In this document: in pieces, positions 4,882-32,521 of the stretch
Position numbering within the stretch: position 1 is the first letter of the stretch
How the letters are laid out: the number at the start of each line of letters is the position of its first letter
Assembly: GCA_947466535.1 (NCBI GenBank)
Contig: CANIEV010000025.1
Span: 1 to 32,864 of the forward strand
Direction: 5' to 3'
From: Betaproteobacteria bacterium
GTDB taxonomy: Bacteria > Pseudomonadota > Gammaproteobacteria > Burkholderiales > SG8-39
Length of the DNA stretch: 32,864 nucleotides
Notes under the pieces: generated by a model
What the model was told of the DNA's origin: nothing
What the model saw: the letters and a program-made list of their open reading frames with translations, nothing else
Databases searched by the model: none
Made by a program: the position numbers and the translations under genes

Positions 4882-4884
4882 GAA

Positions 4885-5232
4885 TCATGTCCTCCAAAGG
4901 ATCTGGACCGCCCAGCCGGCATAGCCGACGAGCGCGATGATCACCAGCACATGGAGCACGAGCCTGATGCCCGTCGGCTTGACATAGTCCATAACGATGT
5001 CCCGCACTCCGACCCACGCATGCATCAGCATGCTCACAACGAAAAGCAGGCAGGCAAACCGCATCCAGCCGCTCGCAAACAGCGCTTTCCAAGACGCGAA
5101 GGTGATCGGACCGCTTGCGAGCAGCACGACAACCATGAGAACGGTGAATGTCGCCATCACCACGGCCGTCACCCTCTGTGCGAGCCAGTCCTTCAGCCCG
5201 TAATGGGCGCCGACAACGACACGCTTCACCAT
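4885..5232 (-). CDS. sdhD: Succinate dehydrogenase membrane anchor subunit SdhD
   Basis: One of two small integral membrane subunits that anchor complex II, bind haem b and form the quinone site. The 115-residue protein has three hydrophobic segments (about residues 21-41, 57-78, 88-111). H71 in the motif HAWVGVRDIVMDY corresponds by position to the haem-ligand histidine of E. coli SdhD, and D82-Y83 to the quinone-site tyrosine. Its start codon ATG (5230-5232) overlaps the sdhC TGA by seven bases, so translation is likely coupled. Sequence similarity in this family is low, so the call rests on the motif, size and operon position. Confidence 0.93.
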   Translation of the reverse strand: MVKRVVVGAHYGLKDWLAQRVTAVVMATFTVLMVVVLLASGPITFASWKALFASGWMRFACLLFVVSMLMHAWVGVRDIVMDYVKPTGIRLVLHVLVIIALVGYAGWAVQILWRT

Positions 5233-10412: not shown

Positions 10413-10451
10413 GCATCACGAATACGCCAACAACCGAAAACAAGGCCTCAC

Positions 10452-11903: not shown

Positions 11904-11927
11904 TTCAACGACGCTGATTCAACGACG
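11900..11927 (+). repeat. Perfect 14-bp tandem duplication at the prpD stop
   Basis: CTGATTCAACGACG occurs twice back to back (11900-11913 and 11914-11927). The first copy contains the prpD TGA; the second ends just before the GGAG ribosome site of acnA. It lengthens the prpD-acnA spacer to 33 bases and looks like a recent slippage duplication. Confidence 0.85.
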
Positions 11928-11936
11928 GAGAACCGC

Positions 11937-14645
11937 ATGCCGCACAACCTGCACAACACGCTCCAGGAATTCAAACTCGCCTCGGGCAAGACCGGGAAGT
12001 ACTACTCCCTGCCCGCGCTCGGCCGCGCGCTTGGCGTCAATCTTTCGCGCCTGCCGGTGTCGATCCGCATCGTGCTCGAGTCGGTGCTTCGCAACTGCGA
12101 TGGCAAGAAGGTCGCGGAAGAGCACGTCCGCCAGGTCGCCAACTGGAAGCCGAACGCCGCCCGTACCGACGAAATTCCGTTCGTGCTCGCCCGCATCGTG
12201 CTGCAGGACTTCACCGGCGTGCCGCTGCTGGCGGACCTCGCCGCAATGCGCACCGTCGCCCAGAACATGGGCAAGGATCCGAAGCGCGTCGAGCCGCTCG
12301 TGCCTGTCGACCTCGTCGTCGACCACTCGGTACAGATCGACTTCTACGGCACCAAGGCATCGCTTGACCAGAATATGAAACTGGAGTTCGAGCGCAACAC
12401 CGAGCGCTACCAGTTCATGAAATGGGGCATGCAGGCCTTCGACACCTTCAAGGTCGTCCCGCCCGGCATCGGCATCATCCACCAGGTCAACCTCGAGTAC
12501 CTCGCGCGCGGCGTGCACAAGTCGAAGGATGCCGTGTACTACCCGGACACCCTGGTCGGCACCGACAGCCACACCACCATGATCAACGGCATCGGCGTCG
12601 TAGGCTGGGGCGTGGGCGGCATCGAGGCGGAAGCCGGCATGCTCGGCCAGCCGATGTACATCCTCACCCCGGACGTGGTCGGCGTGAATCTCAAGGGCAA
12701 GCTGCACCCCGCCTGCACCGCCACCGACCTCGTGCTCACCGTCACCGAAATGCTGCGCAAGGCAAAGGTCGTCGGCAAGTTCGTCGAATTCTTCGGCGAA
12801 GGCACCGCCAGCCTGTCGGTCACCGACCGCTCGACCATCGCCAACATGGCCCCGGAATACGGCGCGACCATGGGATTCTTCCCGGTGGACGACAAGACGA
12901 TCGACTACTTTGTCGGCACCGGCCGCACCGAGGAGGAAATCGACGCGTTCCGCGCCTACTTCAAGGCGCAGGGACTCTACGGCATTCCGAAGGCCGGGCA
13001 GATCGATTACAGCCAGTCGCTGGAACTCGACCTCTCCACCGTCCTGCCCTCGCTCGCCGGACCGAAGCGCCCGCAGGACCGGATCAACCTGGACGCGGTC
13101 AAGAGCAACTTCACCACGCTCTTCTCCAAACCGGTCGGAGAAAACGGCTTTGCCAAGAAGCCGGAGGACCTCGGCCGCCGCTTCAAGACGCGCAGCGGCA
13201 TAGACATCGGCTCGGGCGACATCATGATAGCCGCAATCACATCCTGCACCAACACCTCCAATCCGGGCGTGCTGCTCGCGGCCGGGCTGCTCGCCAAGAA
13301 GGCTGTGGAACTCGGCCTGAAGGTCAAGCCGCACATCAAGACCTCGCTTGCCCCCGGCTCCCGCGTTGTCACCGAATACCTGACCAAGGCGGGCCTGCTG
13401 CCGTATCTGGAGAAGCTCGGCTTCTACACCGCGGGCTACGGCTGCACCACCTGCATCGGCAACGCCGGCCCGCTCGCCGAGCCGATCGAGGAATCGATCG
13501 TGCAGAACGATCTGGTCTGCGCCGCGGTGCTCTCGGGCAACCGCAACTTCGAGGCGCGCATACACGCCAACATCCGCGCGAACTTCCTTGCCTCACCGCC
13601 CCTGGTGGTCGCCTACGCGATCGCCGGCACGATGCTCCGCGATTTCCGCACCGAGCCGATCGGCAAGAGCCGAGACGGCCAGGACGTGTTCATCGGTCAC
13701 ATCTGGCCGACCCACGAGGAAGTCGAGTCGCTGATGAAACTCGCAATGGACGCGCCGACCTTCCGCCGCCTCTACAGCAACCTCGGCAAGGACAATCTGC
13801 TCTGGCAAAAAGTGCCCTCGTCCACCGGGCAGGTCTACAACTGGCCGAAATCGACCTACATCGCCGAGCCGCCGTTCTTCAAGGACTTCTCGATGCAGCC
13901 GACCAAGCCGGGCGCGATCAGCGGCGCCCGGGCCCTGGGCATGTTCGGCGACTCGGTCACCACCGACCACATCAGCCCGGCCGGTTCGATCAAGGCGACC
14001 TCGCCCGCCGGCCTCTACCTGCTCGAGAACGACGTCTCGCGCGTGGACTTCAACAGCTACGGCGCGCGCCGCGGCAACCATGACGTGATGATGCGCGGCA
14101 CCTTCGCCAACGTGCGGATCAAGAACCTGATGATCCCGCCCAAGGCCGACGGCAGCCGCGTGGAAGGCGGCATGACGGTGCATCAGCCGAGCGGCGAATC
14201 ACTCTCGATCTACGACGCCGCGATGAAGTACATGTCGGCCGGCGTGCCGACGGTGATCTTCGGCGGCGAGGAGTACGGCACCGGATCGTCGCGCGACTGG
14301 GCGGCCAAGGGCACCCAGTTGCTCGGCGTCAAGGCGGTGATCGCGCGCAGCTTCGAGCGCATCCACCGCTCCAACCTGATCGGCATGGGCGTGCTTCCCC
14401 TGCAGTTCAAGGGAACCGACTCCGCGCAATCGCTCGGTATCACCGGTGACGAGGAATACGACCTGCTCGGCCTTGACGGCGAGATCCGCCCGCAGATGGA
14501 CGTGACGCTGGTGGTCCGCGGCAAGAACGGTTCGCGCAAGGAAATCAGCGTCCTGCTTCGGATTGACACTCCGATCGAAGTGGACTACTACCGCCACGGC
14601 GGGATCATGCCCTTCGTGCTGCGCGAGTTGCTCTCGGCCGCCTGA
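11937..14645 (+). CDS. acnA: Aconitate hydratase, AcnA type
   Basis: [4Fe-4S] enzyme converting citrate to isocitrate, and likely 2-methyl-cis-aconitate to 2-methylisocitrate in this context. At 902 residues it has the AcnA/IRP domain order (domains 1-3 first, swivelling domain 4 last). [34 protein letters not shown], the first cluster cysteine in [17 protein letters not shown], the cysteine pair in [17 protein letters not shown], and domain-4 motifs [15 protein letters not shown] and [13 protein letters not shown] are all present. The ATG has GGAG upstream. It is the last gene of the prp run and is followed by a strong terminator. Serving both cycles is inference from position. Confidence 0.96.
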
Positions 14646-14662
14646 TCAGGCGCGCGAGAAAT

Positions 14663-14693
14663 AAAAAGCCCGGCTTCGGCCGGGCTTTTTTTT
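14663..14693 (+). terminator. Strong intrinsic terminator after acnA
   Basis: AAAAAGCCCGGC, loop TTCG, GCCGGGCTTTTT (perfect stem 14663-14674 with 14679-14690) followed by further T residues to 14693. It lies 18 bases after the acnA stop. The A-tract on the other side means it could also act on minus-strand transcripts. The AT-rich spacer 14694-14803 beyond it contains a small inverted repeat (CTTTTATTTAAAAG, 14729-14742) but no gene. Confidence 0.92.
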
Positions 14694-14803
14694 CTGCTGA
14701 TCCGAAAGAAATACCGATAATTATTGAACTTTTATTTAAAAGACCAAGTATCTACGCTGCAAAGCGGTCAATTCTGATACCGAATCCGGAATAAGTCAGT
14801 CGC

Positions 14804-15295
14804 TCAGGGAATCAGCCGTATCGCAGGAAGTATCGTTCCCGCATCGAGCAGGTCCACGCGCCGCATCACGATCCGGAACGCCCCCTCTTCCACCCGGAGA
14901 TCATGCCTCACGACGCCGGCGAGCGACAGCCGCGCGTCCTCGCGTGATTCGCAATACAGAAACGGCGTGCGAAGCCGGTATCGATTGGCCTTCGCGTCGG
15001 ACTCCTCGATATCCGGCTCCTGCATCACATGCTGGCAGCGGGTGATCGGCTGCTCCGAATACGCGCGCGGGTGCCTGAACCGGTCCACGCGCACTTTCAG
15101 CAGCACCTTGTCTTCCCAGACCAGCGACTGCTCGGTCTGGGCGTTGGTCTGTTCGGGCGACATCGGCAGCCAGTAGCAGCCATCCTTCGCAAACAGCGCG
15201 TACCACTCGTCGTAGCGCCGTTCATCCAGCAGGCGCGCGTCCATTCGCACGAAGCGCGAAAAATCCTTTTCTTCCGGAACCCAGGCGGCGCTCAT
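14804..15295 (-). CDS. Aromatic-ring-hydroxylating dioxygenase beta subunit
   Basis: Small structural subunit of a Rieske non-haem iron oxygenase. The protein (163 residues from the ATG at 15295) has the NTF2-like beta-subunit fold signature: FVRMDARLLDERRYDEWYAL, FAKDGCYWLP near residue 40, and the C-terminal stretch RIVMRRVDLLDA. Length is normal (about 160-190). The start codon overlaps the alpha-subunit stop (ATGA); a longer in-frame start at 15364 lies inside the alpha gene and lacks support. The substrate cannot be read from this subunit. It ends 110 bases from the acnA terminator. Confidence 0.9.
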   Translation of the reverse strand: MSAAWVPEEKDFSRFVRMDARLLDERRYDEWYALFAKDGCYWLPMSPEQTNAQTEQSLVWEDKVLLKVRVDRFRHPRAYSEQPITRCQHVMQEPDIEESDAKANRYRLRTPFLYCESREDARLSLAGVVRHDLRVEEGAFRIVMRRVDLLDAGTILPAIRLIP

Positions 15296-16647
15296 GCGTT
15301 CACCGCTTTGGGAAATGGCGCGCCGTCGCCCCGCGTCATGCCCTCGGTGATGAGCTTCGCCCATCCGCGATACTGGTTGCGCATCAGCACCTCATTGGCT
15401 CCATCACTTGCGTAATCGGTCGATCCGAGTTCGTCGGCCTTGAAGCCGCGATGCAGGCTCACCCAGTCGTTGCCCGGTGAGCGCACCGAACTCTGGATGG
15501 TCTCGAACACCTGTATATCGTCATGCGCCACCACCGACAACGGCGAGAACACCAATCGGTTGTAGCTCAGCGTGCGCTGCACCAGCACGTCGGGCGTGCC
15601 TTTCGGACGAAACGCCCAGACTTCGAGCAGGGTCCGATTCGATCCGAGCGGGCGCAGTACCCGCATCGTCTGCGGCGCGGCTTTAACCGCCATGCTCGGA
15701 TAGAAAATGGAATTCTGCGGCGCGAAGGACAGGATCGCATGCGCCCGCTCCTTGCCATAGGCCTTGACCATCGCTTCTTCGTACTCCGGAACCGCCGAGT
15801 AGTTCGAATGAAGGCTGGTGTTGGTGCCAAGCACGCTGTGGCCGTTGGGAAACACCCTGCCGCCCATGCTGGCTGCGAAGTCCACGCCGCCGGCGAAAGG
15901 CAGCAATAGTTCCATCGCGAGCGGCTTGGGCGAGCCTTCGGGCTGCTCGTCCCACACCGCCTTGGCGGACATCGCCGAGGACTCGTGAGTTACCGGCGCG
16001 TGCACGGTGTCGTTGATGTTCTCGAGGTAGATCTTCCAGTTGCAGCGGATCTCGTTGCGCAGGCATTCGCCCACCACTTCAAGCTCGCCTTCGGGCGAAC
16101 GGTCTGCCATGTTGTCAAGCGCGTACAGCGCACCCTTGAAATAGTCTTCGAAACCCTGCCCGATCTCGGAGAGGCGGAAGAACACGAATCCGCGGTACAC
16201 CTTGACGTTCTTCACCTTCACAAGACCCTGCCCGGACTCGCAGTCGTTCATCCGCGTCCCCTCGTAGCCCTGTCGCAGCGGCACGCCAGCGAGCGTGCCG
16301 TCGAGCCGGTAGGCCCACGAGTGGTAGGGGCAACTGAAGCCGCGCCCGGTGTTGCCCGAACGCTCGGTCACCACCTTCGCGCCCTTGTGCGCGCAGCGGT
16401 TCATCAGCACCCTGACCGACTTGTCGGTGTTCCTGACCATAATCAGGGAACGTCCCGATATCTCCGCGGTGATGTAGTCACCCGGTTCGCGGACCTGGGA
16501 CTCGTGCCCGAGATAGATCCAGCTGCGTCCGTGCAGATGCTCCATCTCGAGATCGAAAATTTCCTGGCTCAGGTAGACGTCCCGGTGAATCCGGTCCTCC
16601 TGCACCAGCGCCCGCACCGCCTGCGGGTTATCCAGATACTTGCTCAT
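15292..16647 (-). CDS. Rieske aromatic-ring-hydroxylating dioxygenase alpha subunit
   Basis: Catalytic subunit that uses O2 and electrons to hydroxylate an aromatic or related acid. Its 451 residues carry an N-terminal Rieske [2Fe-2S] domain with C85-H87 and C106-H109 (NRCAHKG and CPYHSW) and a C-terminal iron domain with ENINDTVHAPVTH, where D213, H216 and H221 form the bridging Asp and two iron ligands. GAGGAA lies before the ATG. No ferredoxin or reductase gene is nearby, so electrons must come from partners encoded elsewhere. The sequence resembles the large alpha subunits annotated for benzoate/anthranilate/salicylate-type oxygenases, but the exact substrate is not clear. The 164 bases between its start and hslR hold its promoter region; I found no convincing promoter. 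Confidence 0.93.
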   Translation of the reverse strand: MSKYLDNPQAVRALVQEDRIHRDVYLSQEIFDLEMEHLHGRSWIYLGHESQVREPGDYITAEISGRSLIMVRNTDKSVRVLMNRCAHKGAKVVTERSGNTGRGFSCPYHSWAYRLDGTLAGVPLRQGYEGTRMNDCESGQGLVKVKNVKVYRGFVFFRLSEIGQGFEDYFKGALYALDNMADRSPEGELEVVGECLRNEIRCNWKIYLENINDTVHAPVTHESSAMSAKAVWDEQPEGSPKPLAMELLLPFAGGVDFAASMGGRVFPNGHSVLGTNTSLHSNYSAVPEYEEAMVKAYGKERAHAILSFAPQNSIFYPSMAVKAAPQTMRVLRPLGSNRTLLEVWAFRPKGTPDVLVQRTLSYNRLVFSPLSVVAHDDIQVFETIQSSVRSPGNDWVSLHRGFKADELGSTDYASDGANEVLMRNQYRGWAKLITEGMTRGDGAPFPKAVNA

Positions 16648-18725: not shown

Positions 18726-18826
18726 CTTTTCCTGATACTGCTTTCGCGGCGGCGCACTGTCAAGCCTGACCGAAGCATGTCCGCTTGCATCGATTTCCGC
18801 GTACACACCGACCCGATCCGAGGCCC

Positions 18827-19396
18827 ATGCCCCGAACCACCGCCGCCCGCAAGTCCCCGCCCCGGCCGACGCGTTCGCGTGTTGCCGAGGCGAAGGATGC
18901 CGGCGCTGTCGATTCAACGCAGAAGTACGAAGCCGCGCTCGGCGAATTCGAATACGCGCTCTGGCACCTCGGCTCGGCCTTTGCCCGCTGGCGGCGCGAA
19001 TGCCAGGACACCGTGCCCGGACCGGCGCTGAACGGCAACGAGTCGGCCATCCTGCACATGATTCATCTCAACGACTCGCCCAAGGGCCTGATGGATCTCA
19101 GCCGGCTCTTGCACCGGGACGACCTGCCCAACATCCAGTACGGATTGAAAAAGCTCGCCTCGCTCGGCCTGATCGAAAAAAACGGCCGCTCGCGCAAGAA
19201 CATGACCTACGCGGTATCGGGCAAGGGCCGCGCGGTGGTCGATGCCTACCTCGACACGCGGCGCCGCGTGCTGGTGCGCATGTTCATGCGCGTCGCACGC
19301 ACGCCCGACGAGCTCACCGACCTGGTGATGCTGATGCACCTGATGATCGGCATCTACGGCCAGGCGGGTGATCTCGCCGTGAATCGACATCCCTGA
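18827..19396 (+). CDS. MarR-like winged-helix transcriptional regulator
   Basis: 189 residues from the ATG at 18827. The first 40 or so are basic and low complexity (MPRTTAARKSPPRPTRSRVA). A winged-helix region follows (about 70-150): LNGNESAILHMIHLNDSPKG, LMDLSRLLHRDDLPNIQYGL as HTH, KKLASLGLIEKNGRSRKNMT as the wing, and a C-terminal helical dimerisation part. This is a MarR-related type found next to aromatic or CoA-pathway genes in Burkholderiales. It lies 17 bases before the acyl-CoA ligase and is probably the cluster regulator. The start is uncertain: GAGG lies only three bases before this ATG, and an in-frame ATG at 18785 is also open. Confidence 0.8.
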   Translation: MPRTTAARKSPPRPTRSRVAEAKDAGAVDSTQKYEAALGEFEYALWHLGSAFARWRRECQDTVPGPALNGNESAILHMIHLNDSPKGLMDLSRLLHRDDLPNIQYGLKKLASLGLIEKNGRSRKNMTYAVSGKGRAVVDAYLDTRRRVLVRMFMRVARTPDELTDLVMLMHLMIGIYGQAGDLAVNRHP

Positions 19397-19413: not shown

Positions 19414-21045
19414 ATGCCCGCGATCACCGTCCACGAAAAGCTGCTCGAGACCGCACAGCGCTACCCGGACAACGACCTGCTCGTCTACCCCGGCTGGCTG
19501 CGCGATCGCTGGGAACTGCCACAGTCGAACTGGACCTATTCGCAGGCAGTGTCGATCATCGACGGGCTCGCTCGCCGCTACCGCGCGGCAGGCTACGGCC
19601 AGGGCCATCGCGTCGCGCTGCTGCAGGAAAACCGGCCGTCGCATTTCTTTCACTGGCTCGCGTTGAACTCGCTTGGCGTGAGCATGGTGCCGATCAACCC
19701 CGACTACAAGGAAGACGAAGCGCGCTATGCGCTCGAACACAGCGAGTCGGTGCTGGTGGTGACGATTCCGTCGATGCTGGAGCGGATCGCATCGGCCGCG
19801 AAGACCTGCGGCGTGCCGGTCATGCTCGCCGATGACAACACCATTCCGCAGGCGAAATCCGCGCCGCCCGGGGGGCCGACCGGAGAAGACGCCGAAGCCG
19901 CCCTGCTCTACACCTCCGGCACCACCGGCCGGCCCAAGGGCTGCATGCTGTCCAACGGCCATTTCTTTGGCTGGGGCGAGTGGTACGAAGCCCAGGGCGG
20001 CCTGATATCGCTGCGCCCGGGCAAGGAGCGCCTGATGCAGGTGCTGCCGACCTTCCACGTGAACGCGGTCGGCAATGCCTTCATGGGCATGATCTTCACC
20101 GGCGGCGCGCAGATCCAGCTCGACCGGTTTCATCCGCGCAGCTGGTGGACCGATGCGATCGAAACCCGCGCCACCTGCTTTCATTACCTCGGCGTGATCC
20201 CGGCGATGCTGATGAACATCGCCCCGTCGGAACACGACCGCGCGCATTCGCTTCGCTACGGCATGGGCGGCGGCGTCTATCCCGCGCACCACGCGGCCTT
20301 CGAAGCGCGCTTCGGCGTGCCGCTGCTCGAGGGCTGGGCCATGACCGAGACCGGCGGCGGCGGCCTGATGACCGACCTGAACGAGCCGCGCAACATCGGC
20401 GAATGCTGCATCGGCTCGCCGGATCGCGGCGGGCCGTCGCTCGAAGTTCGGGTGGCCGATGATGACGGAAACGAACTGCCGCGCGGCGAACCCGGCGAAC
20501 TGCTTGTCCGGGCGCAAGGTGCCAACCCTCGCCGGCGCTTTTTCTCCGGCTACTTCAAGGACCCGGCGGCCACCGAAACCGCGTGGCGCGACGGCTGGTT
20601 CCATACCGGCGACATCGTCCGCCAGGACACCGCGGGCAAACTCTTTTTCATGGACAGGAAGAAGAACATCATCCGCCGCTCGGGCGAAAACATCGCCGGC
20701 ATCGAGGTCGAGAGCGCGGTGCTGTCCCATCCCGATGTCGGCCAGGTCGCGGTGATCGCGGTGCTGGACGAAATCCGCGGCGAAGAGGTGATGGCGATCG
20801 TCGCGCCACGCCCGGGTGTAACGCCCGACCGTGCGCTCGCGGAATCAATCGCCGATCATTGCCTCGCCCGGCTCGCTTACTATAAGGCCCCCGGCTATGT
20901 GGTCTTCCGGGACGAACTGCCCACCACCTCGACCCAGAAGGTGCGCATGAATGCCCTGGGCGAACTCGCCCGGAACCCCGCGGCGCAGAAGGACTGCCAC
21001 GACCTGCGCGAACGAAAGCAGGCGGCACGCGGACCAAAGAAGTAA
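19414..21045 (+). CDS. AMP-dependent acyl-CoA ligase (class I adenylate-forming, CaiC-like)
   Basis: Activates a carboxylic acid to its CoA thioester through an acyl-adenylate. The 543-residue protein has the P-loop-like A3 motif YTSGTTGRPKGCMLSN, the A5 region GWAMTETGGGG, the A7 motif WFHTGDIVRQD, the hinge MDRKKNIIRRSGENIAGIEV, and the catalytic-lysine region TSTQKVRM near the C-terminus. It most resembles the crotonobetaine/carnitine- and long-chain-type ligases rather than dedicated benzoate ligases; the substrate is not predictable. GGAG precedes the ATG. It starts the enzyme cluster after marR, and its product is presumably the substrate of the following thiolase-like/DUF35-SDR pair. 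Confidence 0.9.
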   Translation: MPAITVHEKLLETAQRYPDNDLLVYPGWLRDRWELPQSNWTYSQAVSIIDGLARRYRAAGYGQGHRVALLQENRPSHFFHWLALNSLGVSMVPINPDYKEDEARYALEHSESVLVVTIPSMLERIASAAKTCGVPVMLADDNTIPQAKSAPPGGPTGEDAEAALLYTSGTTGRPKGCMLSNGHFFGWGEWYEAQGGLISLRPGKERLMQVLPTFHVNAVGNAFMGMIFTGGAQIQLDRFHPRSWWTDAIETRATCFHYLGVIPAMLMNIAPSEHDRAHSLRYGMGGGVYPAHHAAFEARFGVPLLEGWAMTETGGGGLMTDLNEPRNIGECCIGSPDRGGPSLEVRVADDDGNELPRGEPGELLVRAQGANPRRRFFSGYFKDPAATETAWRDGWFHTGDIVRQDTAGKLFFMDRKKNIIRRSGENIAGIEVESAVLSHPDVGQVAVIAVLDEIRGEEVMAIVAPRPGVTPDRALAESIADHCLARLAYYKAPGYVVFRDELPTTSTQKVRMNALGELARNPAAQKDCHDLRERKQAARGPKK

Positions 21046-21084: not shown

Positions 21085-22275
21085 ATGAAAATCAAACGCG
21101 CTTCCTACGAAGGCGTGGCGGTCGCGGTACCGATTACGATCCCCTACGTCCGCTACTCGCTCCACGGCGCCCACTGGTGGGTCGGCCGTGCGCTCGCTGA
21201 ACTTTGCAAAAAGTCGAAGATCAAGAAAGAGGAAATCGACGGCCTCTGCGCATCCAGTTTCACGCTCGCGCCCGACGCCGCGGTCGGCCTCACCCAGCAC
21301 CTCGGTCTCACGGTGCGCTGGCTCGATCATGTGCCACTCGGCGGCGGCAGCGCAGTGGTGAGCCTTCGGCGCGCCGCGCGCGCCGTCCAGGCGGGCGATG
21401 CCAACATCGTCGCCTGTATCGCCGGCGATGCAAACCACGTCGAGTCCTTCCGGCTGAACACCTCGAACTTCAGCATGTTCGCGCGCGACGCGGTGTATGC
21501 CTATGGATCGGGTGGAACGTATGCGAGCTTTGCCTTTCTCACCGCCTACTACATGCGCACCTTCGGTGCGAAGCGCGAGGATTTCGGCAAGCTCTGCATC
21601 GATCAGCGCACCAACGCGCTCAAAAACCCGCACGCGCTGTTCAAGAAGCCGCTCACGATGGACGAGTACATGAACGCGCGGCCGCTCGCCACGCCTGTGC
21701 ACCTGTTCGACTGCGTGATGCCCTGCGCGGGCGCGGAGGCCTTCATCGTGATGCGCGAGGACGACGCGAAGGCACGCGGCCTGCCCTACACGAAACTGCT
21801 CTCGGCCACCGAGCGGCTCAACGCCTTCCCGCAGGACCCGATCCAGATGCGCGGCGGCTGGGAGATGGACGTCGACGAGCTCTACGGCATGGCCGGACTC
21901 ACACCAAAGGACATGGATTTCTTCCAGGGCTACGACGACTACCCGGTGATCAACTTCATGCAAATGGAGGACCTCGGCTTTTGCAAGAAGGGCGAGGCCA
22001 AGGACTACGTGCAGTCCAACACATTCACCTACGACGGCAGCACGCCCTTCAACACCTGCGGCGGCCAGCTCTCGGTGGGCCAGGCGGGCGCGGCCGGCGG
22101 CCACCTTGGCCTGGTCGAGACGATCCGCCAGCTGACCGGGGACGTGCTCGGCGGGCAGGTCAAGGACGCTGAAGTGGGCGTCGTGACCGGCTTCGGGATG
22201 ATCAACTACGACCGCGGCCTGTGCTCGGCCGCGGCCATCCTTGCCACCGGCAAGCGCATGGGAGCGAAAGCATGA
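21085..22275 (+). CDS. Thiolase-like protein (SCP2-thiolase/lipid-transfer family) lacking canonical catalytic residues
   Basis: 396-residue protein with the overall thiolase fold. Aligned by hand, the position of the nucleophilic Cys (C89 in Zoogloea thiolase) is G87, within PLGGGSAVVSL; the HPxG histidine is Q333 (NTCGGQLSVGQAGAAGG, 323-339); and the second cysteine is V367 (GVVTGFGMINYD). GYDDYPVINF (282-291) replaces the NEAFA loop. A standard Claisen/thiolysis mechanism is therefore unlikely. Relatives pair with DUF35 proteins; in steroid side-chain degradation one such pair (Ltp2 with a DUF35 partner) is an aldolase. The next gene, overlapping by ATGA, supplies a DUF35 domain. A five-codon mini-frame (21071-21088) overlaps this ATG and follows the GAGGAAG ribosome site. 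Confidence 0.85.
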   Translation: MKIKRASYEGVAVAVPITIPYVRYSLHGAHWWVGRALAELCKKSKIKKEEIDGLCASSFTLAPDAAVGLTQHLGLTVRWLDHVPLGGGSAVVSLRRAARAVQAGDANIVACIAGDANHVESFRLNTSNFSMFARDAVYAYGSGGTYASFAFLTAYYMRTFGAKREDFGKLCIDQRTNALKNPHALFKKPLTMDEYMNARPLATPVHLFDCVMPCAGAEAFIVMREDDAKARGLPYTKLLSATERLNAFPQDPIQMRGGWEMDVDELYGMAGLTPKDMDFFQGYDDYPVINFMQMEDLGFCKKGEAKDYVQSNTFTYDGSTPFNTCGGQLSVGQAGAAGGHLGLVETIRQLTGDVLGGQVKDAEVGVVTGFGMINYDRGLCSAAAILATGKRMGAKA

Positions 22276-23519
22276 CATCTGCCCTGCAGAGACCGAAACG
22301 CAAGAACCCGATACTCCGCACCCGGCTGCCGAACGTTCCGCCGGCGGCGCGAAGCCGCGTCGGCCAGGGCCTCACCTGGGCGGCCGCGCGCGGCGCCTTC
22401 GAACTCCAGGAATGCAAGGAGTGCGGCACGGTGCAGTACCCGCCGCGCGAGGCCTGCCACCAATGCCTGTCCGAAAAGCTCGTCTGGAAGGAGCAGGACG
22501 GCGCGGGCGAACTGATCTCCGAGACCACCCTGCATCTCAGCTACGAGTTGTTCTTTCGCGAGCGGGTGCCCTGGCGGCTCGGGATGGTGAAGCTTGACCG
22601 TGGGCCGATCGTCATCGCCCACCTGCACAACGATTGCCCGGTCGCGCCCACGCGCGTTCGGGTCCAGGCCTGCCTCGACAAAGGCGGACAGGCCGCAATG
22701 TTCACGATGCCGGAGAAGGAAACCCTCAACATGGCCGACGACAAGCAACTGCGCGAGATGACCTGTGATCCGAAGTTCAGAAAAGTGCTGGTGACCGACG
22801 GCAAGACCGCGGTCGGCCAGGAGATCGTGCGCGGCCTGGTGAAGGCCGGTGCCGACCTGATCTGGGTGGGCTATGCCGAGGCGTGGAAGAACTTCCCCGG
22901 CTTCGACGACCTGAAGCAGATTCCCCAGGTCACGTTGATTCCGCTCGATCTCACCAACTCCAAGTCGGTGCGCGAAGTCTGCTCGCAGATCGGCGGACGG
23001 GTGGACATCGTGATCAACAACGCCGAAGTCCACCGCACCTACGGCATCGCCTCGCGCCAGGGCGTGGAGAACGCGCGCATGGAGATGGACATCAACTACT
23101 TCGGCCTGCTGCGCCTTGCGCAGGAACTCGCACCCGCGATGCGCTCGCGCGGCGCCGACGGCCAGTCAAGCGCGGTCGCCTGGGTTAATTTGCTCTCCAT
23201 CTACGCGCTGACCAACTACCCGCCGCACGGCACGTTCTCCGCCTCCAAGGCCGCGGCGCATTCGCTCGCGCAGTGCCTACGCGCCGAAATGCGAGGCTCG
23301 GGCATCCGAGTAATCAACATCTATCCCGGCCCGATCGACGACGAATGGAACCAGACCATGCTGCCCCCGAAGCTCACGCCAGGCGCGGTCTCGAGCGCGA
23401 TCGTGAAGGCACTGCAGAGCGGTGTGGAGGATGTCTATCCGGGCGATGTGGCCCAGGAATGGCTCGCCCGCTGGCGCGACAACCCCAAGGCCCTCGAGCG
23501 CGAAGTTCAGGGCGGATAA
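22272..23519 (+). CDS. DUF35 (zinc ribbon-OB fold) fused to a degenerate short-chain dehydrogenase
   Basis: A 415-residue two-domain protein. Residues about 30-150 are DUF35: a zinc ribbon C48-C51/C62-C65 (CKECGTVQYPPREACHQC), then an OB-like part with PWRLGMVKLDRGPIVIAHL. Residues about 168-400 are an SDR: VINNAE (N249-N250), an Asn near 275, S309, and PG at 352-353. The catalytic Tyr is Phe (F322 in TFSASKAAAH; codon TTC), while K326 remains. The cofactor motif TGxxxGxG reads TDGKTAVG (175-182), keeping one of three glycines. Dehydrogenase activity is doubtful; the SDR half may be structural or bind a CoA ligand. The start ATG at 22272 overlaps the thiolase-like stop, implying a stable complex of the two. 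The reading is one continuous frame with no sign of a frameshift. Confidence 0.85.
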   Translation: MTSALQRPKRKNPILRTRLPNVPPAARSRVGQGLTWAAARGAFELQECKECGTVQYPPREACHQCLSEKLVWKEQDGAGELISETTLHLSYELFFRERVPWRLGMVKLDRGPIVIAHLHNDCPVAPTRVRVQACLDKGGQAAMFTMPEKETLNMADDKQLREMTCDPKFRKVLVTDGKTAVGQEIVRGLVKAGADLIWVGYAEAWKNFPGFDDLKQIPQVTLIPLDLTNSKSVREVCSQIGGRVDIVINNAEVHRTYGIASRQGVENARMEMDINYFGLLRLAQELAPAMRSRGADGQSSAVAWVNLLSIYALTNYPPHGTFSASKAAAHSLAQCLRAEMRGSGIRVINIYPGPIDDEWNQTMLPPKLTPGAVSSAIVKALQSGVEDVYPGDVAQEWLARWRDNPKALEREVQGG

Positions 23520-23532
23520 CAGGACGGCACCC

Positions 23533-24333
23533 ATGACAACCGACACCATAGCAACCACCAACCTCCTCCAGTTCGCTGCCGAAGTGGCATCCGGGCGCAT
23601 CCGGGTCATCGACCTCACCCAGACCCTGTCGCCGGATTTCCCGCAGATCGTGATGCCGCCCGAAATGGGCCAATGCGCCCCGTTCCGGATCGAGGAGATC
23701 TCCCGCTACGACGCGCGCGGCCCGGGCTGGTACTGGAACAACTTTTCCTGCGGCGAGCACACCGGTACCCACTTCGATGCGCCGATTCACTGGATTTCGG
23801 GCAAGGACCTGCCCAACAACAGCGTGGATACCGTGCCCACCGAGCGTTTCATTGCGCCCGCCTGCGTGATCGACTGCTCGAAGGAATCGGCCGAAAACCC
23901 GGACTTCCTTCTCACCATCGATTTCGTGAAGAAATGGGAAGCGAAACACGGCCGGATTGCCGCGGGTTCGTGGGTGCTGATGCGCACCGACTGGTCCAAG
24001 CGCACCGACCCGGTGGAATACCAGAACTTCGACGAAACCGGCCAGCACACCCCGGGGCCGGACTCCGAGTGCGTGCCGTTCCTCGTCAACGAGCGCAACG
24101 TCTGCGGCTTCGGCACCGAGGCAATCGGCACCGACGCGGGACTCGCCCAGTACCTGCGCCCGCCCTACCCCTGCCACTACTTCATGCACGGCAACAACCG
24201 CTATGGCCTGCAGTGCCTGACCAACCTCGACCTGCTGCCGCCCACCGGCGCGGTGATCCTGGCTGCGCCGCTGAAGATCAAGGATGGCAGCGGCAGTCCG
24301 CTGCGGGTGCTGGCGCTGGTGCAGGGCACGTAG
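23533..24333 (+). CDS. Cyclase family protein (kynurenine-formamidase-like metal-dependent hydrolase)
   Basis: 266-residue enzyme of the cyclase/arylformamidase family, which hydrolyses amides, lactones or cyclic ketones using a divalent metal. The metal motif HxGTHxDxPxH appears as HTGTHFDAPIH near residue 80, followed by a typical DWSK segment and C-terminal GLQCLTNLDLLPPTGAVILA. The ATG at 23533 has AGGA nine bases upstream and lies 13 bases after the fusion gene, so it is co-transcribed with it. In this cluster it could open a ring or release a product from a CoA pathway; the substrate is unknown. Confidence 0.87.
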   Translation: MTTDTIATTNLLQFAAEVASGRIRVIDLTQTLSPDFPQIVMPPEMGQCAPFRIEEISRYDARGPGWYWNNFSCGEHTGTHFDAPIHWISGKDLPNNSVDTVPTERFIAPACVIDCSKESAENPDFLLTIDFVKKWEAKHGRIAAGSWVLMRTDWSKRTDPVEYQNFDETGQHTPGPDSECVPFLVNERNVCGFGTEAIGTDAGLAQYLRPPYPCHYFMHGNNRYGLQCLTNLDLLPPTGAVILAAPLKIKDGSGSPLRVLALVQGT

Positions 24334-24550: not shown

Positions 24551-24949
24551 TTAAGCCCCGGATGGATTGGCCTCGACGTCGAGATCCTTGAACACCTCCC
24601 GCGCAAGGCGGTGCGCCTCGATCGCCGCCGGGATGCCGCAGTACACCCCCACCTGTAGCAGCACTTCGCGGATTTCCTCGCGGCTCGCGCCGTTGACCAC
24701 CGCGCCTCTGACGTGCGCCTTGAACTCGTGCGGGCGGTTGAGCGCGGACAGCATCGCCAGGTTCAACAGGCTGCGGGTCTTGCGATCCAGCCCCGGCCGG
24801 TTCCAGAGCCAGCCCCAGGCGAAGGTGGTGGTCATCTCCTGCATCGCCGCGCCGAAGTCGTCAGCGGTGGCGAGCGCACGGTCCACGTAGGCGTCGCCAA
24901 GCACTTCGCGGCGCGTCACCAGGCCTTTATCGTACAGTTCCTTGTCCAT
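24551..24949 (-). CDS. Carboxymuconolactone decarboxylase (CMD/AhpD-like) family protein
   Basis: 132-residue all-helical protein. The core LDRKTRSLLNLAMLSALNRP followed by EFKAHVRGAVVNGASREEIR and EVLLQVGVYCGIPAAIEAHR matches the 4-carboxymuconolactone decarboxylase branch rather than AhpD, because the AhpD CxxC pair is absent. The true PcaC reaction (decarboxylation of 4-carboxymuconolactone in the protocatechuate ortho pathway) is possible, but no other pca genes are here, so the family name is safer. The start at 24949 has GGGGGAG just upstream; an ATG at 24970 would add seven residues. The gene stands alone, convergent with the cyclase. Confidence 0.85.
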   Translation of the reverse strand: MDKELYDKGLVTRREVLGDAYVDRALATADDFGAAMQEMTTTFAWGWLWNRPGLDRKTRSLLNLAMLSALNRPHEFKAHVRGAVVNGASREEIREVLLQVGVYCGIPAAIEAHRLAREVFKDLDVEANPSGA

Positions 24950-25047
24950 TGCCTCCCCCGTAAAAGTCAAACTTTGCCATTTTCAGAAGCAGTATCCATA
25001 AGTGAAAGCAGACGATTGTATTGCTAATTTTCGCAATAGCCGTCGTC

Positions 25048-26905: not shown

Positions 26906-27949
26906 TCAGACGGCGGCCGCCTTGCCGCCTGCCGCCTCGCGCTCTTTCACCAGGTCAAGCGCGACGTCCACGATCATGTCTTCCTGGCCACCCACCATAC
27001 GGCGCTTGCCGAGTTCGGCAAGGATGTCGAAGGTCGGGATGCCGTAACGCTCGGCAGCGGATTCCGCATGCCGCAGGAAGCTCGAGTACACGCCCGAGTA
27101 GCCCAGGGCCAGCGTTTCGCGGTCCACGCGCACCGGACGATCCTGCAACGGACGCACCAGGTCGTCAGCGGCGTACATGAGTTTCTTCAGATCGCAGCCG
27201 TGCTCGATGCCCATGCGGTCCATCACGCCGATCAGCACTTCAAGCGGCGTGTTGCCCGCGCCCGCGCCCATGCCGGCAAGCGACGCGTCGATCCGGTAGG
27301 CACCCTCTTCCATCGCGATGATGGAGTTGGCCACGCCGAGCGACAGGTTGTGGTGGCAATGCACCCCGATCTCGGTCTCGGGCTTGAGCGCATCACGCAG
27401 CGCACGCGTCTTGTCGCGCGCATCGTTCATCAGCATCGCGCCGCCCGAGTCGGTGACATACACGCAATGCGCGCCGTAGGATTCCATCAGCTTCGCCTGC
27501 TCGGCGAGCTTCTGCGGCGTAACCATGTGCGCCATCATCAGGAAACCGACGGTGTCCATGCCGAGCTTGCGCGCGTGTTCCATGTGCTGACGCGAGATGT
27601 CGGCTTCGGTGCAGTGGGTGGCAACGCGGACCGTGCGGGCGCCCGCCTTGTAGGCGGCGTCCAGATCATGCAAGGTGCCGATGCCGGGGATGAGCAGCGT
27701 CGCGACCTGCGCATGCTTGACCATCGCCGCCACCGCTTCGATCCACTCCACGTCGGTGTGCAGGCCGAAACCGTAGTTGAAGCTCGAACCTGCAAGACCG
27801 TCGCCGTGCGATATCTCGATCGAATCGACCTTCGCCTCGTCCAATGCCTTGGCGATCGCGGTGACTTGCGTGAGCGTGTACTGGTGACGGCGCGGATGCT
27901 GGCCGTCGCGCAGCGTCACATCGGAGATATAAACCTTCTTCTTTGTCAT
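26906..27949 (-). CDS. dmpG: 4-hydroxy-2-oxovalerate aldolase (DmpG/BphI/MhpE)
   Basis: Cleaves 4-hydroxy-2-oxopentanoate to pyruvate and acetaldehyde at the end of the meta-cleavage pathway. The 347 residues have the DRE-TIM metallolyase start [15 protein letters not shown] (catalytic Arg and metal Asp), VTDSGGAML, and the metal-binding [15 protein letters not shown], then the C-terminal communication domain. The length of about 345 is typical of the form that docks with the acylating acetaldehyde dehydrogenase, encoded just upstream with a 24-base gap, allowing acetaldehyde channelling. Last gene of the operon, before the terminator at 26857. Confidence 0.95.
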
Positions 27950-27973
27950 GCGTGTTCTCCTTGATCGTCCGAA

Positions 27974-28921
27974 TTACGCTGCCAGCGCGAACTTGCGTTC
28001 GGCCAGGCGCTCGGCCGCGGCAAGCGCCGCCGAGGTCATGATGTCGAGGTTGCCGGCGTAGGCGGGCAGGTAGTGGCCTGCGCCTTCGACCTCGAGATAG
28101 ATGGACACTTTCACGCCATGCTTCAGGCCGACGCCGGGTATGTTCATCGGGCTGTCCGCAGGCACCTTCTCGAACTGCACCCGCTGCTTGAGCCGGTAGC
28201 CGGGCACATAGCCCGCGACCTGCGCCACGATGTCGTCCACCGACTTGCGGATCGCGTCCTCGTTCGCGCCGTCTTCCGCAAGCACATAGACCGTGTCTCG
28301 CATGATCAGCGGCGGCTCCGCCGGATTCATGATGATGATCGCCTTGCCGCGCGCTGCGCCGCCAAGCTTGACGATCGCCTTCGAGGTGGTTTCGGTGAAT
28401 TCGTCGATGTTCGCGCGGGTGCCGGGGCCGGCGGACTTGCTCGCAATCGACGCGACGATCTCGGCGTAATGCACATTGGCGACACGCGACACCGCATACA
28501 CCAGCGGAATCGTCGCCTGCCCGCCGCAGGTCACCATGTTGATGTTCGGGCTGTCGAGGTGCTCGTTCAGGTTCACCACCGGGATGACGTAGGGGCCGAT
28601 CGCGGCGGGCGTGAGGTCGATCACCTGGATGCCGTGCTTCTGCAGCACTTCGTTGTGCTTCGCATGCGCGCCGGCGGAGGTCGCGTCGAACGCGATCTTG
28701 ATGTCCTTGAAATTGGGCAGCTTCACCAGGCCGTCGATGCCCTCGTGCGTCGTCGGCACGTTCAGGCGCGCCGCACGGGCGAGCCCGTCGGATGCCGCGT
28801 CGATTCCGACCATCGCGCCCATCGTCAGGTGTTTGGACTTGCGCATCACCTTGATCATCAGGTCGGTGCCGATGTTGCCCGAACCGATGATCGCCACCGC
28901 CACCTTTGCGTCCTTGGTCAT
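27974..28921 (-). CDS. dmpF: Acetaldehyde dehydrogenase, acylating (DmpF/BphJ/MhpF)
   Basis: Converts acetaldehyde, NAD+ and CoA to acetyl-CoA, taking its substrate from the aldolase encoded next. The 315 residues show the NAD fold [20 protein letters not shown], the catalytic cysteine in [16 protein letters not shown], and [20 protein letters not shown]. Length is normal. It is preceded by a 79-base spacer filled with a short tandem repeat, the largest gap in the operon. Confidence 0.96.
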
Positions 28922-28937
28922 TCGTTTCTCCAGAAAT

Positions 28938-29000
28938 TTTTGTCGCGCGCCTGCACCGAATTGTGTCGCGCGAGTGCGCCGGATTGTGTCGCGCCTGCGC
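28938..29000. repeat. Imperfect tandem repeat (about 23 bases, three copies) between the decarboxylase and dehydrogenase genes
   Basis: Units begin TTTGTCGCGCGCCTGCACCG (28939), TTGTGTCGCGCGAGTGCGCC (28961) and TTGTGTCGCGCCTGCGC (28984), the last abutting the dmpH stop at 29001. They fill the intergenic gap. A role in RNA structure or expression of the distal genes is possible but not shown. Confidence 0.75.
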
Positions 29001-29768
29001 TCAGGCCTTCACCGAGAACGCCACCCGCCCGAGATGCTGCATCTCCATCTCGACAAAGGTGTCCGGCGCGAGGGCTTCCGCCGCGGTCGCGCCGCCCGCC
29101 ATCACGATCCAGCCGGGCTGCAGCGGCTCCCCCGCCTCGGCCGCAAAACGCGCCGCGGCCACCAGCGAGCGCAGCGGATGGCCGAGCAGCGCCGCAGTGG
29201 ATCCGATCAGCATCGGCTTGCCGTTGAAGGACAGAACCAGCCCGAGGTTCGAGAAGTCGAAATCCGGCTTGTGCCAGGCGCCGGTGACAAAACCCGACGA
29301 GGACGAGTTGTCCGCCACCACGTCCTCGAGCGAGAACTTGAATTTCTCGTAGCGCGAGTCGATGAGTTCCATCGCCGGTGCCACCGCCTCCACCGCGGCG
29401 AGTGCCTGCAACGAGGTCACGTTGCCCACCAGTTCGGACTTCAGCAGGAAGGCGATTTCCGGCTCGATCCGCGGGTGCACATACTTCGAGATCGAGATCG
29501 GCGCGCCTTCCTCGAGGATCATGCCGCTGGTGAGCCGGCCCCAGATCATGTCGGAGAGACCCATCTGGACCATCTTCGCGCGGCTGGTGAAGCCCATCTT
29601 GATGCCAACGCGCTTCTCGCCGCGCGAGATCCTGCGGCCGATCGACGCCTTTTGTACCGCATAGGCGTCGTTCATGTTCATCGTGGTATGCGACGACAGC
29701 TGGGGAATCGCCGTCGCCTTGCGCGCCGCGTCGTCGACGGTCGCGGCGAGTGCCTGAATGTCTGCCAA
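29001..29768 (-). CDS. dmpH: 2-oxo-3-hexenedioate (4-oxalocrotonate) decarboxylase
   Basis: Decarboxylates 4-oxalocrotonate to 2-hydroxypenta-2,4-dienoate, working as a complex with the hydratase encoded just upstream. The 255-residue protein belongs to the hydratase/decarboxylase branch of the FAH-like superfamily: [20 protein letters not shown], metal ligands in [32 protein letters not shown], and [21 protein letters not shown] separate it from the hydratase by the IWGRLTSGM and [19 protein letters not shown] features; as the two families are close, a swapped assignment with the neighbour is possible. It lies 11 bases after the hydratase. Confidence 0.85.
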
Positions 29769-29779
29769 GATCGTTCTCC

Positions 29780-30622
29780 TTAGTTGCCGAAGACGGTGCG
29801 CACCGAGCCGAGGCCCGAGATCCGCACGTCGATCACATCACCGGGGCTCACCGCGGCCATCGGGCCGAGCGCGCCGCTCATGATCACATCGCCCGCCTTG
29901 AGCGGTGCGCCCACATCCACCATGGTGCGCGCAAGCCAGAGCGCGGCGATCAGCGGATTGCCGAGGCAGGCGACACCCGCGCCGAGCGAAATCTGGTCGC
30001 CGCGGCGCTCCATCACCATGCCGCACAGGCGCAGGTCGAGACCTTCGAGCTTCTTCGGTTCGTTGCCGAGCACGAACAGGCCCGAGGACGCGTTGTCCGC
30101 GATCGTGTCCTGGATCTTGATGTTCCAGTTGGCGATGCGGCTGCCGACGATCTCGATCGCGGGCACCGCATAGGCCACCGCCGAAATCAGTTCCGAAATC
30201 GCGAGGTCCTTCTTGGTGAGGTCACGATCGAGCACCAGCGCGATCTCCGCCTCGACCTTGGGCTGCATCACGCGCGCGAGCGGCACTTCCTCGCCGTCGC
30301 CGAAGGTCATGTCGGCATAGAGCATGCCGTAATCGGGCTGATCGACGCCGAGCTGCTTTTGCACGGATTTGGAGGTGAGGCCGATCTTGCGGCCGATCAG
30401 CCGCCTGCCCTGCTTCACCCAGTATTTCGTGTTGATCGCCTGTATCGCGTACGCGGTGGCGACATCGCCCGGCGTGAGCGCGTCACGGATCGGGTCGGTC
30501 GCGACACCGGTGTCGTGGGCGATGCGGATGCGATCCGCAAGCTGTTTGACGAGCGCAGCGTTGCCGCCGGATCTTGCGACTACCGTCTTTTTTGCAGTCT
30601 TTTTTGCTGATTTGGTTGCCAT
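29780..30622 (-). CDS. dmpE: 2-keto-4-pentenoate hydratase, with a lysine-rich N-terminal extension
   Basis: Hydrates 2-hydroxypenta-2,4-dienoate to 4-hydroxy-2-oxovalerate. The 280-residue protein has [30 protein letters not shown], metal ligands in [32 protein letters not shown] and [14 protein letters not shown]. The first 20 residues ([20 protein letters not shown]) are a Lys/Ala-rich tail not expected in the family, which is usually about 260 residues. The ATG at 30622 is the only usable start near the family N-terminus; no ATG, GTG or TTG occurs in frame in the tail. First gene of the operon and divergent from the 4,5-dihydroxyphthalate-decarboxylase-like gene. Confidence 0.88.
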
Positions 30623-30773: not shown

Positions 30774-31766
30774 ATGAGCAAACTCAAGATCAACGTCTCC
30801 ACCTGGGACTACGACCGCGTACGGCCGATCATGGACGGCCGCGTCCCGATCGAAGGCTGCGAGGTCAACTACTTCCCGCTTTCCCCCGAAGAGTGCTTTC
30901 ACCGGGCCTACTTCAACCGCGAATTCGAAGTCTCGGAAATCGGCTTCAGTCCGTACATCAACGCGGTGTCGCGCGGCACCGCGCCCTATGTGGGCGTGCC
31001 GGTTTTTCTGTCGCGCATGTTCCGCCATTCGGCGATCTACATCCGCAGCGACCGCGGCATCAATACCCCTGCCGATCTGAAGGGCAAGAAGGTGGGCGTG
31101 CCGGAATTCCAGATGACCGCGGTGCTCTGGGCGCGCGGCATGCTGCAGGACGACCACGGCGTCAGCCCGACCGACATCCTGTGGCGCCAGGGCGGCCAGG
31201 AGCAGCCCGGCCGCAAGGACAAGTACCCGCTCAATCTGCCCCGTGATTTTCCCCTTGAGCCGATCGGCCCGAACGAAACCCTCAACCAGCTGCTCGCCGA
31301 AGGCAAGCTGGATGCAGTCATCAGCGCGCGCACGCCGGTGTTCTACCGCGACGGCAAGACGCCGGTGAAGCGGATGTTCGAGGACTTCGAGACAGTCGAA
31401 AAAGACTATTTCCGCCGCACCGGCATCTTCCCGATCATGCATGCGCTTGGCATCCGCAACGACATCCACGAAAAGCATCCCTGGCTCGCCGCCAGCCTCT
31501 ACAAGGCCTACAACGAAGCCAAGCGCATCTCGCAGGCGGAGTTTTTCCACACGGCGGCGCTCAAGATCGGCCTTCCCTGGGTGGTGAGTGCAGCGCAGGA
31601 AGCGCGCGCCCTGATCGGCGACGATTTCTGGCCCTACGGTGTGGAAGCCAACCGCAAGACGCTCGAGCCGATGCTGCGCTACGCGCACGAACACGGCACG
31701 TCGCTTCGCAAGGTGGAGATCGCAGAACTCTTTGCGCACACCACGCTGGAACAGCCGAAGACCTGA
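30774..31766 (+). CDS. 4,5-dihydroxyphthalate decarboxylase-like / periplasmic-binding-fold protein without signal peptide
   Basis: 330-residue protein. The start ([20 protein letters not shown]) and [20 protein letters not shown], followed by [20 protein letters not shown] and [20 protein letters not shown], match the family that includes 4,5-dihydroxyphthalate decarboxylase of phthalate degradation, often annotated as an ABC transporter solute-binding protein because it has a type II periplasmic-binding fold. There is no signal peptide, so a cytoplasmic enzyme is more likely than a receptor. The ATG at 30774 has AGGA just upstream; the frame is open further up without support. It is followed after 26 bases by a class II aldolase-family gene. 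Confidence 0.75.
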
Positions 31767-31792
31767 TCAACCCCAAAGAGGAGAAAACAACA

Positions 31793-32521
31793 ATGGACAA
31801 ACTCACCCGCGCCATCCGCGATCTCGTGATCGCCAACCGCATTCTCGCCAACGAAGGCGTGGTCGACGCCTACGGTCATATCAGCCTGCGGCATCCGGAG
31901 CATCCCGACCGCTTCCTGCTGTCGCGCTCGCGCAGCCCGGAGCTGGTCGAACCGGAGGACATCATGCAGTTCTCACTCGACGGCAAGGTGGTGGGCGATG
32001 ACAAGCGCCCGCCCTACCTCGAGCGCTTCATCCACGGCGGGGTGTTCGAATCCCGCCCCGAAATCATGGCGGTGGTCCACAGCCACGCCCAGAGCGTGCT
32101 GCCCTACTCCATCTCGTCCACGCCGCTGCAGCCGGTGATCCACGTCGGCGCGATCCTCGGCACGCACATTCCGATCTGGGATATCGCCGACGATTTCGGC
32201 GACACCAACCTGCTCGTTGTCAATCCGGATCAGGGACGCAGTCTTGCGAAGCGTCTCGGCCCCTACAGCATCTCGCTGATGCGCGGCCACGGCTTCACCG
32301 CCGCGGGAAAAACGCTGATCCAGGCGCTCTGGATGGCGGTGTACCTGCCGGTCAACGCCGCGGTGCAAAGCGAGGCGTCGCGTCTCGGGCCGTTCAAGCC
32401 GCTATCCAAGCGCGAAATCGAACTCGGGGGGGCGCTGGACCCGACCTCCCCCGCGATGCTGCGTTCCTGGGAATACTGGGCGAAGCGCGCCGGGTGCGAG
32501 GCGCTTCTGAACGACGACTGA
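31793..32521 (+). CDS. Class II aldolase/adducin family protein (possible aromatic-acid decarboxylase)
   Basis: 242-residue zinc or divalent-metal enzyme. It contains DAYGHISLRHP near the N-terminus, the acidic residue in GGVFESRPEIMAVVHSHAQS, metal histidines in HSHAQ and RGHGFTAAG. The family includes L-fuculose-phosphate aldolase and also decarboxylases such as the 3,4-dihydroxyphthalate 2-decarboxylase of phthalate pathways and HCOMODA decarboxylase. With the 4,5-dihydroxyphthalate-decarboxylase-like gene upstream, a decarboxylase role is the better guess than sugar aldolase. The ATG has a strong AGAGGAG site nine bases upstream. The 124-base gap to the next gene shows no terminator. Confidence 0.82.
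   Translation: MDKLTRAIRDLVIANRILANEGVVDAYGHISLRHPEHPDRFLLSRSRSPELVEPEDIMQFSLDGKVVGDDKRPPYLERFIHGGVFESRPEIMAVVHSHAQSVLPYSISSTPLQPVIHVGAILGTHIPIWDIADDFGDTNLLVVNPDQGRSLAKRLGPYSISLMRGHGFTAAGKTLIQALWMAVYLPVNAAVQSEASRLGPFKPLSKREIELGGALDPTSPAMLRSWEYWAKRAGCEALLNDD

Follow-up and report, generated by a model that had tools for sequence, protein, structure and literature searches.

The coupled genes at positions 21,085 to 23,519 of the window, by which we mean the whole stretch of 32,864 nucleotides that was analyzed, encode two proteins that, on sequence identity and gene order, are the IadG and IadH of iad, the locus for degradation of indole-3-acetate (auxin). The two proteins probably form one retro-aldolase of the auxin-degrading pathway, which would split dioxindole-3-acetyl-CoA into isatin and acetyl-CoA with the DUF35 domain of IadH as obligate partner and the SDR domain of IadH in a non-catalytic role. 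The IadG and IadH reading frames overlap by the bases ATGA (-4) and are flanked by genes for a CoA ligase (IadF) and an isatin hydrolase (IadI), the same ligase-before, hydrolase-after arrangement as in the Variovorax locus. The features of the window that bear on this reading are as follows.

14804 to 15364, minus strand: Rieske oxygenase beta subunit, IadE-like (Pfam Ring_hydroxyl_B)
15292 to 16647, minus strand: Rieske oxygenase alpha subunit, IadD-like (542-550 bits to PDB 7yls/8h2t and 9o71)
18785 to 19396, plus strand: MarR-type winged-helix protein 5' of the ligase gene, a putative regulator (Pfam HTH_27; no match among solved structures in the PDB)
19414 to 21045, plus strand: acyl-CoA ligase, IadF-like (AMP-binding domains; proposed product dioxindole-3-acetyl-CoA)
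21085 to 22275, plus strand: IadG, predicted thiolase-fold retro-aldolase of 396 residues (Pfam Thiolase_C_1; motif Y283-D284-D285-Y286)
21931 to 21942, plus strand: codons of the YDDY motif, IadG residues 283-286, aligned with Y302-D-C304-Y of CtSal (PMC12329534)
22272 to 23519, plus strand: IadH, 415 residues, DUF35 fused to a probable pseudo-SDR (Pfam zf-ChsH2, OB_ChsH2_C and adh_short)
22377 to 22646, plus strand: DUF35 part of IadH, about residues 36-125, zinc ribbon and OB fold (Pfam)
22779 to 23510, plus strand: probable pseudo-SDR part of IadH, about residues 170-413 (adh_short; Z 33.5 to 5u4s)
23533 to 24333, plus strand: isatin hydrolase, IadI-like (381 bits to 5nmp; motifs HTGTHFD, WYW and GLQC)

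Directly past the isatin hydrolase gene, on the other strand, lies a gene for a carboxymuconolactone decarboxylase family protein (24551-24970, minus strand; PcaC score 149.4 bits, below the cut-off of 155.7). A meta-cleavage lower pathway occupies 26906-30607 (minus strand) and comprises 4-hydroxy-2-oxovalerate aldolase, acetylating acetaldehyde dehydrogenase and two members of the hydratase/decarboxylase family. Positions 30774-32521 contain two ORFs, one like a substrate-binding protein and one of the class II aldolase family, the latter with 3,4-dihydroxyphthalate decarboxylase as its top NCBIfam match, below the cut-off of that model; these ORFs may be phthalate-type decarboxylases.

The iad locus is known from Variovorax paradoxus CL014 (PMC12633357, PMC9613470, PMC10374108). 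A genome of the large family f49 carries a locus, L147, that holds IadA-B-C-D-E-F-G-H-I-J in the published order, and the IadD of this locus is 94% identical to PDB 7yls. We take 7yls to be Variovorax IadD from its name, from the IadD/E structure in the paper and from the L147 match; the PDB code does not occur in the accessible part of the paper. Because L147 has the published gene order and the Variovorax-type IadG and IadH are 63% and 68% identical to the window proteins, the window pair is assigned as IadG and IadH. The next gene agrees with this arrangement: its product scores 380-381 bits against solved isatin hydrolases and, with HTGTHFD, WYW and GLQC, has intact counterparts of the signatures of that family, namely the HxGTHxD metal motif, the WxW pocket and GLQC/GLAS (PMC6117287).

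A sequence-only reading of this DNA had proposed a new orphan complex, and had suggested a search for the DUF35-SDR domain order. That order was found in plasmid records and in many genomes: by tblastn, 37 plasmid records (Azospirillum, Sulfitobacter, Roseibium, Ruegeria and others) have one place covering at least 80% of the fusion length, which together with the genomes rules out an orphan or window-specific complex. The novelty claim thus falls, since the pair belongs to a published locus and the fusion is widespread. The coupling of the two genes, which the same reading had noted, is real and not due to chance. A scan of genome contigs recovered IadG relatives of 64-70% identity at 80 loci, mostly from Achromobacter, Bordetella, Pusillimonas, Azoarcus and alphaproteobacteria; the DUF35-SDR partner adjoins IadG in nearly all of them, most with the 4-base overlap, and the traits described below are family-wide. 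The pair is present in 82 of the 268 genomes of the family that holds the Achromobacter-type relatives.

The usual gene order in these loci is Rieske alpha, Rieske beta, acyl-CoA ligase, thiolase-like protein, DUF35-SDR and cyclase. Counted within 9 kb and on the same strand, the neighbors in 78 loci longer than 15 kb, which were fetched by likeness to the pair itself and so describe the close family only, are the ligase (77), DUF35-SDR (78), the cyclase, or isatin hydrolase (77), and Rieske alpha and beta (67 each). The other iad genes appear in the same set as IadA-like (58), IadB-like (61), IadC-like (48) and IadJ-like (62) neighbors.

IadG lacks the Cys/His/Cys set of thiolases. In pairwise alignments G87 falls on the first Cys of the set, Q333 on the His and V367 close to the second Cys, much as had been read from the letters, and Gly and Gln occupy the first two of these positions in all 117 IadG sequences. 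The best match to a solved structure by sequence is Sal (9myr, 163 bits), followed by 7yvy, 6ok1 and 7pxp. An AlphaFold2 single-chain model (pLDDT 86.9, residues 120-144 poorly defined) resembles Sal 9myr most closely (Z 49.2), then Ltp2 6ok1 (Z 46.0) and thiolases (at most 45.9); matches within 1 Z count as tied, so that the third rank is tied with Ltp2. Ltp2, which had been named for comparison, is an apt choice. Sal uses a catalytic Tyr302 and Cys304 in a YDCY motif, with Gln347 and Gln352 in support and a Gly at the old nucleophile position (PMC12329534). In the alignment, IadG has Y283, D285, Q328 and Q333 at Sal Tyr302, Cys304, Gln347 and Gln352, and G87 at Sal Gly89. Y283-D284-D285-Y286-P287, G86, G87, N323, Q328, Q333 and G369-F370-G371 are invariant in 117 of 117 sequences.

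These features, namely the Sal/Ltp2-like fold, the catalytic Tyr and the Gly in place of the nucleophilic Cys, are those of the retro-aldolase class, and they lend support, from sequence and model, to the earlier idea that a thiolase-fold protein and DUF35 make up a C-C lyase for the CoA ester from the upstream ligase. The accompanying claim that both proteins are degenerate holds only in part: the SDR domain is probably non-catalytic, but IadG has a complete and invariant set of the Sal type. Judged by its residues, IadG is not a dead enzyme but has an active site of the Sal type with an Asp-for-Cys change. Neither the Cys304 of Sal nor the second Tyr (Tyr344) of Ltp2 is present, Asp285 and Gln333 taking these places in 117 of 117. 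Because its motif is YDDY, against YDCY in Sal and YDHF in IpfD (Ltp2 type), IadG is by alignment neither of the Sal nor of the Ltp2 subtype but a third variant, in which the Tyr is kept and the Cys or His has become Asp. The Sal variants C304S, C304H and C304A have lost all activity, and an Asp at this place therefore needs a different detail of proton transfer.

More distant YDDY proteins occur in Nonomuraea (37%) and Novosphingobium resinovorum (53%). The gene of the latter lies beside a CoA ligase gene and one for a short stand-alone zinc-ribbon/DUF35-type protein without an SDR, and no isatin hydrolase was found within the fetched 6 kb flanks. DUF35 without SDR thus seems, from this arrangement, to be enough for a YDDY enzyme. 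Both YDDY proteins outside the iad context (L176 4283-7493, N. resinovorum pSA1; L174 4896-6050, Nonomuraea gerenzanensis) adjoin CoA ligases and have no SDR fusion, and other YDDY aldolase pathways are possible.

In Variovorax, the reductase IadC, the Rieske dioxygenase IadDE and the dehydrogenase IadJ give C10H9NO4, dioxindole-3-acetic acid (DOAA), and the next genes are given as acyl-CoA synthase (iadF), 'ketothiolase' (iadG), 'alcohol dehydrogenase' (iadH) and 'kynurenine formamidase' (iadI), assignments that for G, H and I rest on annotation in the accessible part of the paper (PMC12633357). According to the same part, anthranilate formation requires every gene from iadF to iadJ, and deletion of iadF, G, H or I leads to a build-up of DOAA with anthranilate lowered (PMC12633357). 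Isatin is named as an intermediate of indole-3-acetate breakdown in Bradyrhizobium and Variovorax in the portion available of another report (PMC9613470).

In the retro-aldolase route, IadF would convert DOAA to the CoA thioester. In this beta-hydroxyacyl-CoA the beta carbon is quaternary, so that it could not be oxidized to the ketone that thiolysis requires. Thiolysis after beta-oxidation would thus be impossible, the case that Ltp2 solves at steroid C17. Tyr283 of IadG would take the C3-OH proton as the C-C bond breaks, and Asp285, at the Sal Cys304 place beside Gln328 and Gln333, would handle the proton for the acetyl-CoA enolate, with isatin (C8H5NO2) and acetyl-CoA as predicted products. 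The hydrolase encoded by the next gene would then open isatin with H2O to isatinate (C8H7NO3). The formulas agree: isatin plus H2O equals C8H7NO3, a compound that is among the observations in the accessible part of the Variovorax paper (PMC12633357), whereas dioxindole plus H2O does not give C8H7NO3.

In the published scheme, a ketothiolase (IadG) and an alcohol dehydrogenase (IadH) act together with IadF to remove the side chain reductively, giving dioxindole. We consider this very improbable, although besides the gene annotation it has an experimental observation on its side: C8H7NO2, the formula of dioxindole, is reported to build up in two strains, iadCDEFGH_JK2 and the iadI mutant, for the latter of which it is reported in place of isatin, and the available text proposes reductive removal (PMC12633357). 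This is also the main point against a retro-aldolase; the C8H7NO2 of the strain without iadI may be dioxindole made from isatin by other reductases. A ketothiolase is at odds with the Gly and Gln at the nucleophilic Cys and His positions of every IadG and with DOAA-CoA, which has no beta-keto group, and an alcohol dehydrogenase with the Variovorax-type IadH (L103), which has F322 and no TGxxxGxG. Moreover, the next enzyme is an isatin hydrolase, and a reductive path through C8H7NO2 followed by a hydrolase is unbalanced unless there is a further oxidation.

Pairwise alignments and Pfam bear out the description of IadH as a DUF35-SDR fusion in which TDGKTAVG aligns with TGxxxGxG and F322 with the catalytic Tyr. 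Its zinc ribbon, C48-x2-C51-x10-C62-x2-C65, has canonical spacing and all four Cys in 117 of 117 sequences. Coupled genes and an intact zinc ribbon fit a DUF35 partnership, and we infer from homologues that IadG and IadH associate physically; as in Sal-Shy and Ltp2-ChsH2, the DUF35 domain would dock on IadG and line the substrate cleft. The single-chain model (pLDDT 90) shows an intact SDR fold, which matches 5u4s with Z 33.5 and an rmsd of 1.5 over 237 residues (31% identity). No IadH keeps TGxxxGxG (0/117): in place of the first Gly in the dinucleotide loop all 117 sequences have Asp176, and a Gly at position 180 occurs in only 3 of them. At residue 322 there is W in 64, F in 27, Y in 18, T in 5, H in 2 and S in 1, so that the Tyr is lost in 99 of the 117; residue 326 is K in 79, Q in 22, M in 7, E in 6 and another residue in 3. 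On the IadH tree, the Trp322 sequences group in a single clade, and about 13 substitutions are required at residue 322. These substitutions suggest that the SDR domain is probably an inactive pseudoenzyme. It would then serve as a non-catalytic scaffold, which may shape the assembly or recruit IadJ.

An alternative, which we regard as unlikely, keeps IadG as a retro-aldolase but lets the SDR domain bind NAD(P) and stay active in certain lineages, for instance as a reductase or dehydrogenase of isatin or dioxindole. The N-S-Y-K tetrad is indeed kept in 9 of the 117 IadH proteins, the window protein with its F322 not among them, so some might retain activity; 5u4s, the closest solved SDR, was crystallized with NADP, and the available part of one report has dioxindole detected in cultures (PMC9613470). 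Set against this are the universal Asp176, the near-absence of Gly180 and the repeated changes at residue 322. In addition, the operon has a working SDR elsewhere, since both motifs of the SDR IadJ, TGGSAGIG and YSATK, are intact (L147). As a separate observation, 5u4s itself aligns a Leu (SLSASK) with the catalytic Tyr position, its crystallization with NADP notwithstanding, and the Tyr may have been lost before the fusion with DUF35 arose.

The window genome differs from the complete loci. No single locus in it holds a complete iadABCDEFGHIJ set; IadA- and IadJ-like genes lie on other contigs (59% and 54% identity), and no IadC orthologue was found in its 341 contigs (90% complete). Two IadA-like genes (59%, 54%) lie close together on another contig of this genome, at 10426-16116. 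The Rieske genes of the window are on the strand opposite to the pair, unlike in most relatives, and their alpha subunit is 51% identical to the IadD of L147 and about 58% identical to that of a second Rieske set in L147. This second alpha/beta set lies beside the L147 iad locus (3657-5021, minus strand), near several solute-binding proteins. The Rieske identities, the missing IadC and the meta-cleavage genes downstream would suit a pair that serves a parallel pathway in this organism, with an arylacetic or indolic acid other than auxin as substrate. We doubt this reading, as an isatin hydrolase with intact signatures directly follows the pair and points to an isatin-type product; auxin is the likely substrate here.

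The iad genes and pathway are known; the retro-aldolase mechanism and the reassignment of the two proteins appear to be new. A literature search of partial coverage found no paper describing IadG as an aldolase, and the accessible parts of the published iad papers do not mention a DUF35 domain, an aldolase-type active site or the SDR decay. The sequences argue that the annotation as 'ketothiolase' and 'alcohol dehydrogenase' is wrong, and on this reading the database names 'thiolase' and 'SDR oxidoreductase' mislead for this family. Plant growth is affected when root bacteria break down auxin, and for the iad route the step that removes the side chain has so far been assigned from annotation alone. 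A retro-aldolase would give a chemically balanced path to isatin and names the residues to mutate, and the Asp-type active site would be an addition to a small class of enzymes that is of interest for biocatalysis on C-C bonds.

Among known systems, the bile acid aldolase CtSal-CtShy (PDB 9myr; PMC12329534, PMC11321319) is the best match to IadG by sequence and fold, with the Tyr, both Gln and the Gly (Tyr302, Gln347, Gln352 and Gly89) matched by Y283, Q328, Q333 and G87. In both pairs the partner is a DUF35 fused to another enzyme fold, but the zinc site is C3H1 in Shy and C4 in IadH, and the fused domain is an active MaoC hydratase in Shy and a probable pseudo-SDR in IadH. The steroid aldolase Ltp2-ChsH2 (PDB 6ok1) and IpfD/IpfE likewise combine a thiolase fold with DUF35 on a tertiary beta-hydroxyacyl-CoA, and ChsH2 also pairs its DUF35 with a dead enzyme domain (PMC11321319). 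The ipf genes for ibuprofen degradation (pIBU218) share with iad the logic of CoA ligase, Rieske oxygenase and thiolase/DUF35, but IpfD has YDHF and GEAY where IadG has YDDY and SVGQAG, and IpfE is a stand-alone DUF35 and not a fusion. An ibuprofen-type pathway as direct homologue is out, IpfD being of the Ltp2 type and the isatin hydrolase pointing elsewhere.

In anaerobic toluene degradation, BbsAB is a thiolase/DUF35 pair and BbsCD an SDR pair with a non-catalytic subunit. The parallel that the sequence-only reading drew with them stands, but it is more distant than those with Sal/Shy and Ltp2/ChsH2: BbsB is a lower-ranked match to IadG (Z 44.8; 95 bits), and BbsAB, unlike the predicted IadG-IadH enzyme, is a genuine thiolase whose substrate is a beta-keto CoA ester. 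A direct BbsCD-like relation of the IadH SDR part was not seen among its solved relatives, of which 5u4s is the best, and absence from that list excludes nothing. A bolder and more tentative possibility is that IadG represents a third catalytic type of thiolase-fold retro-aldolase, Tyr-Asp as against Tyr-Cys in Sal and Tyr-Tyr in Ltp2, and that the pseudo-SDR recruits IadJ, the active SDR of the same operon, by serving as its docking platform, so that DOAA would be made and cleaved in one assembly. Such a platform would have parallels in ChsH2, with its dead MaoC domain, and in BbsCD, with its dead subunit.
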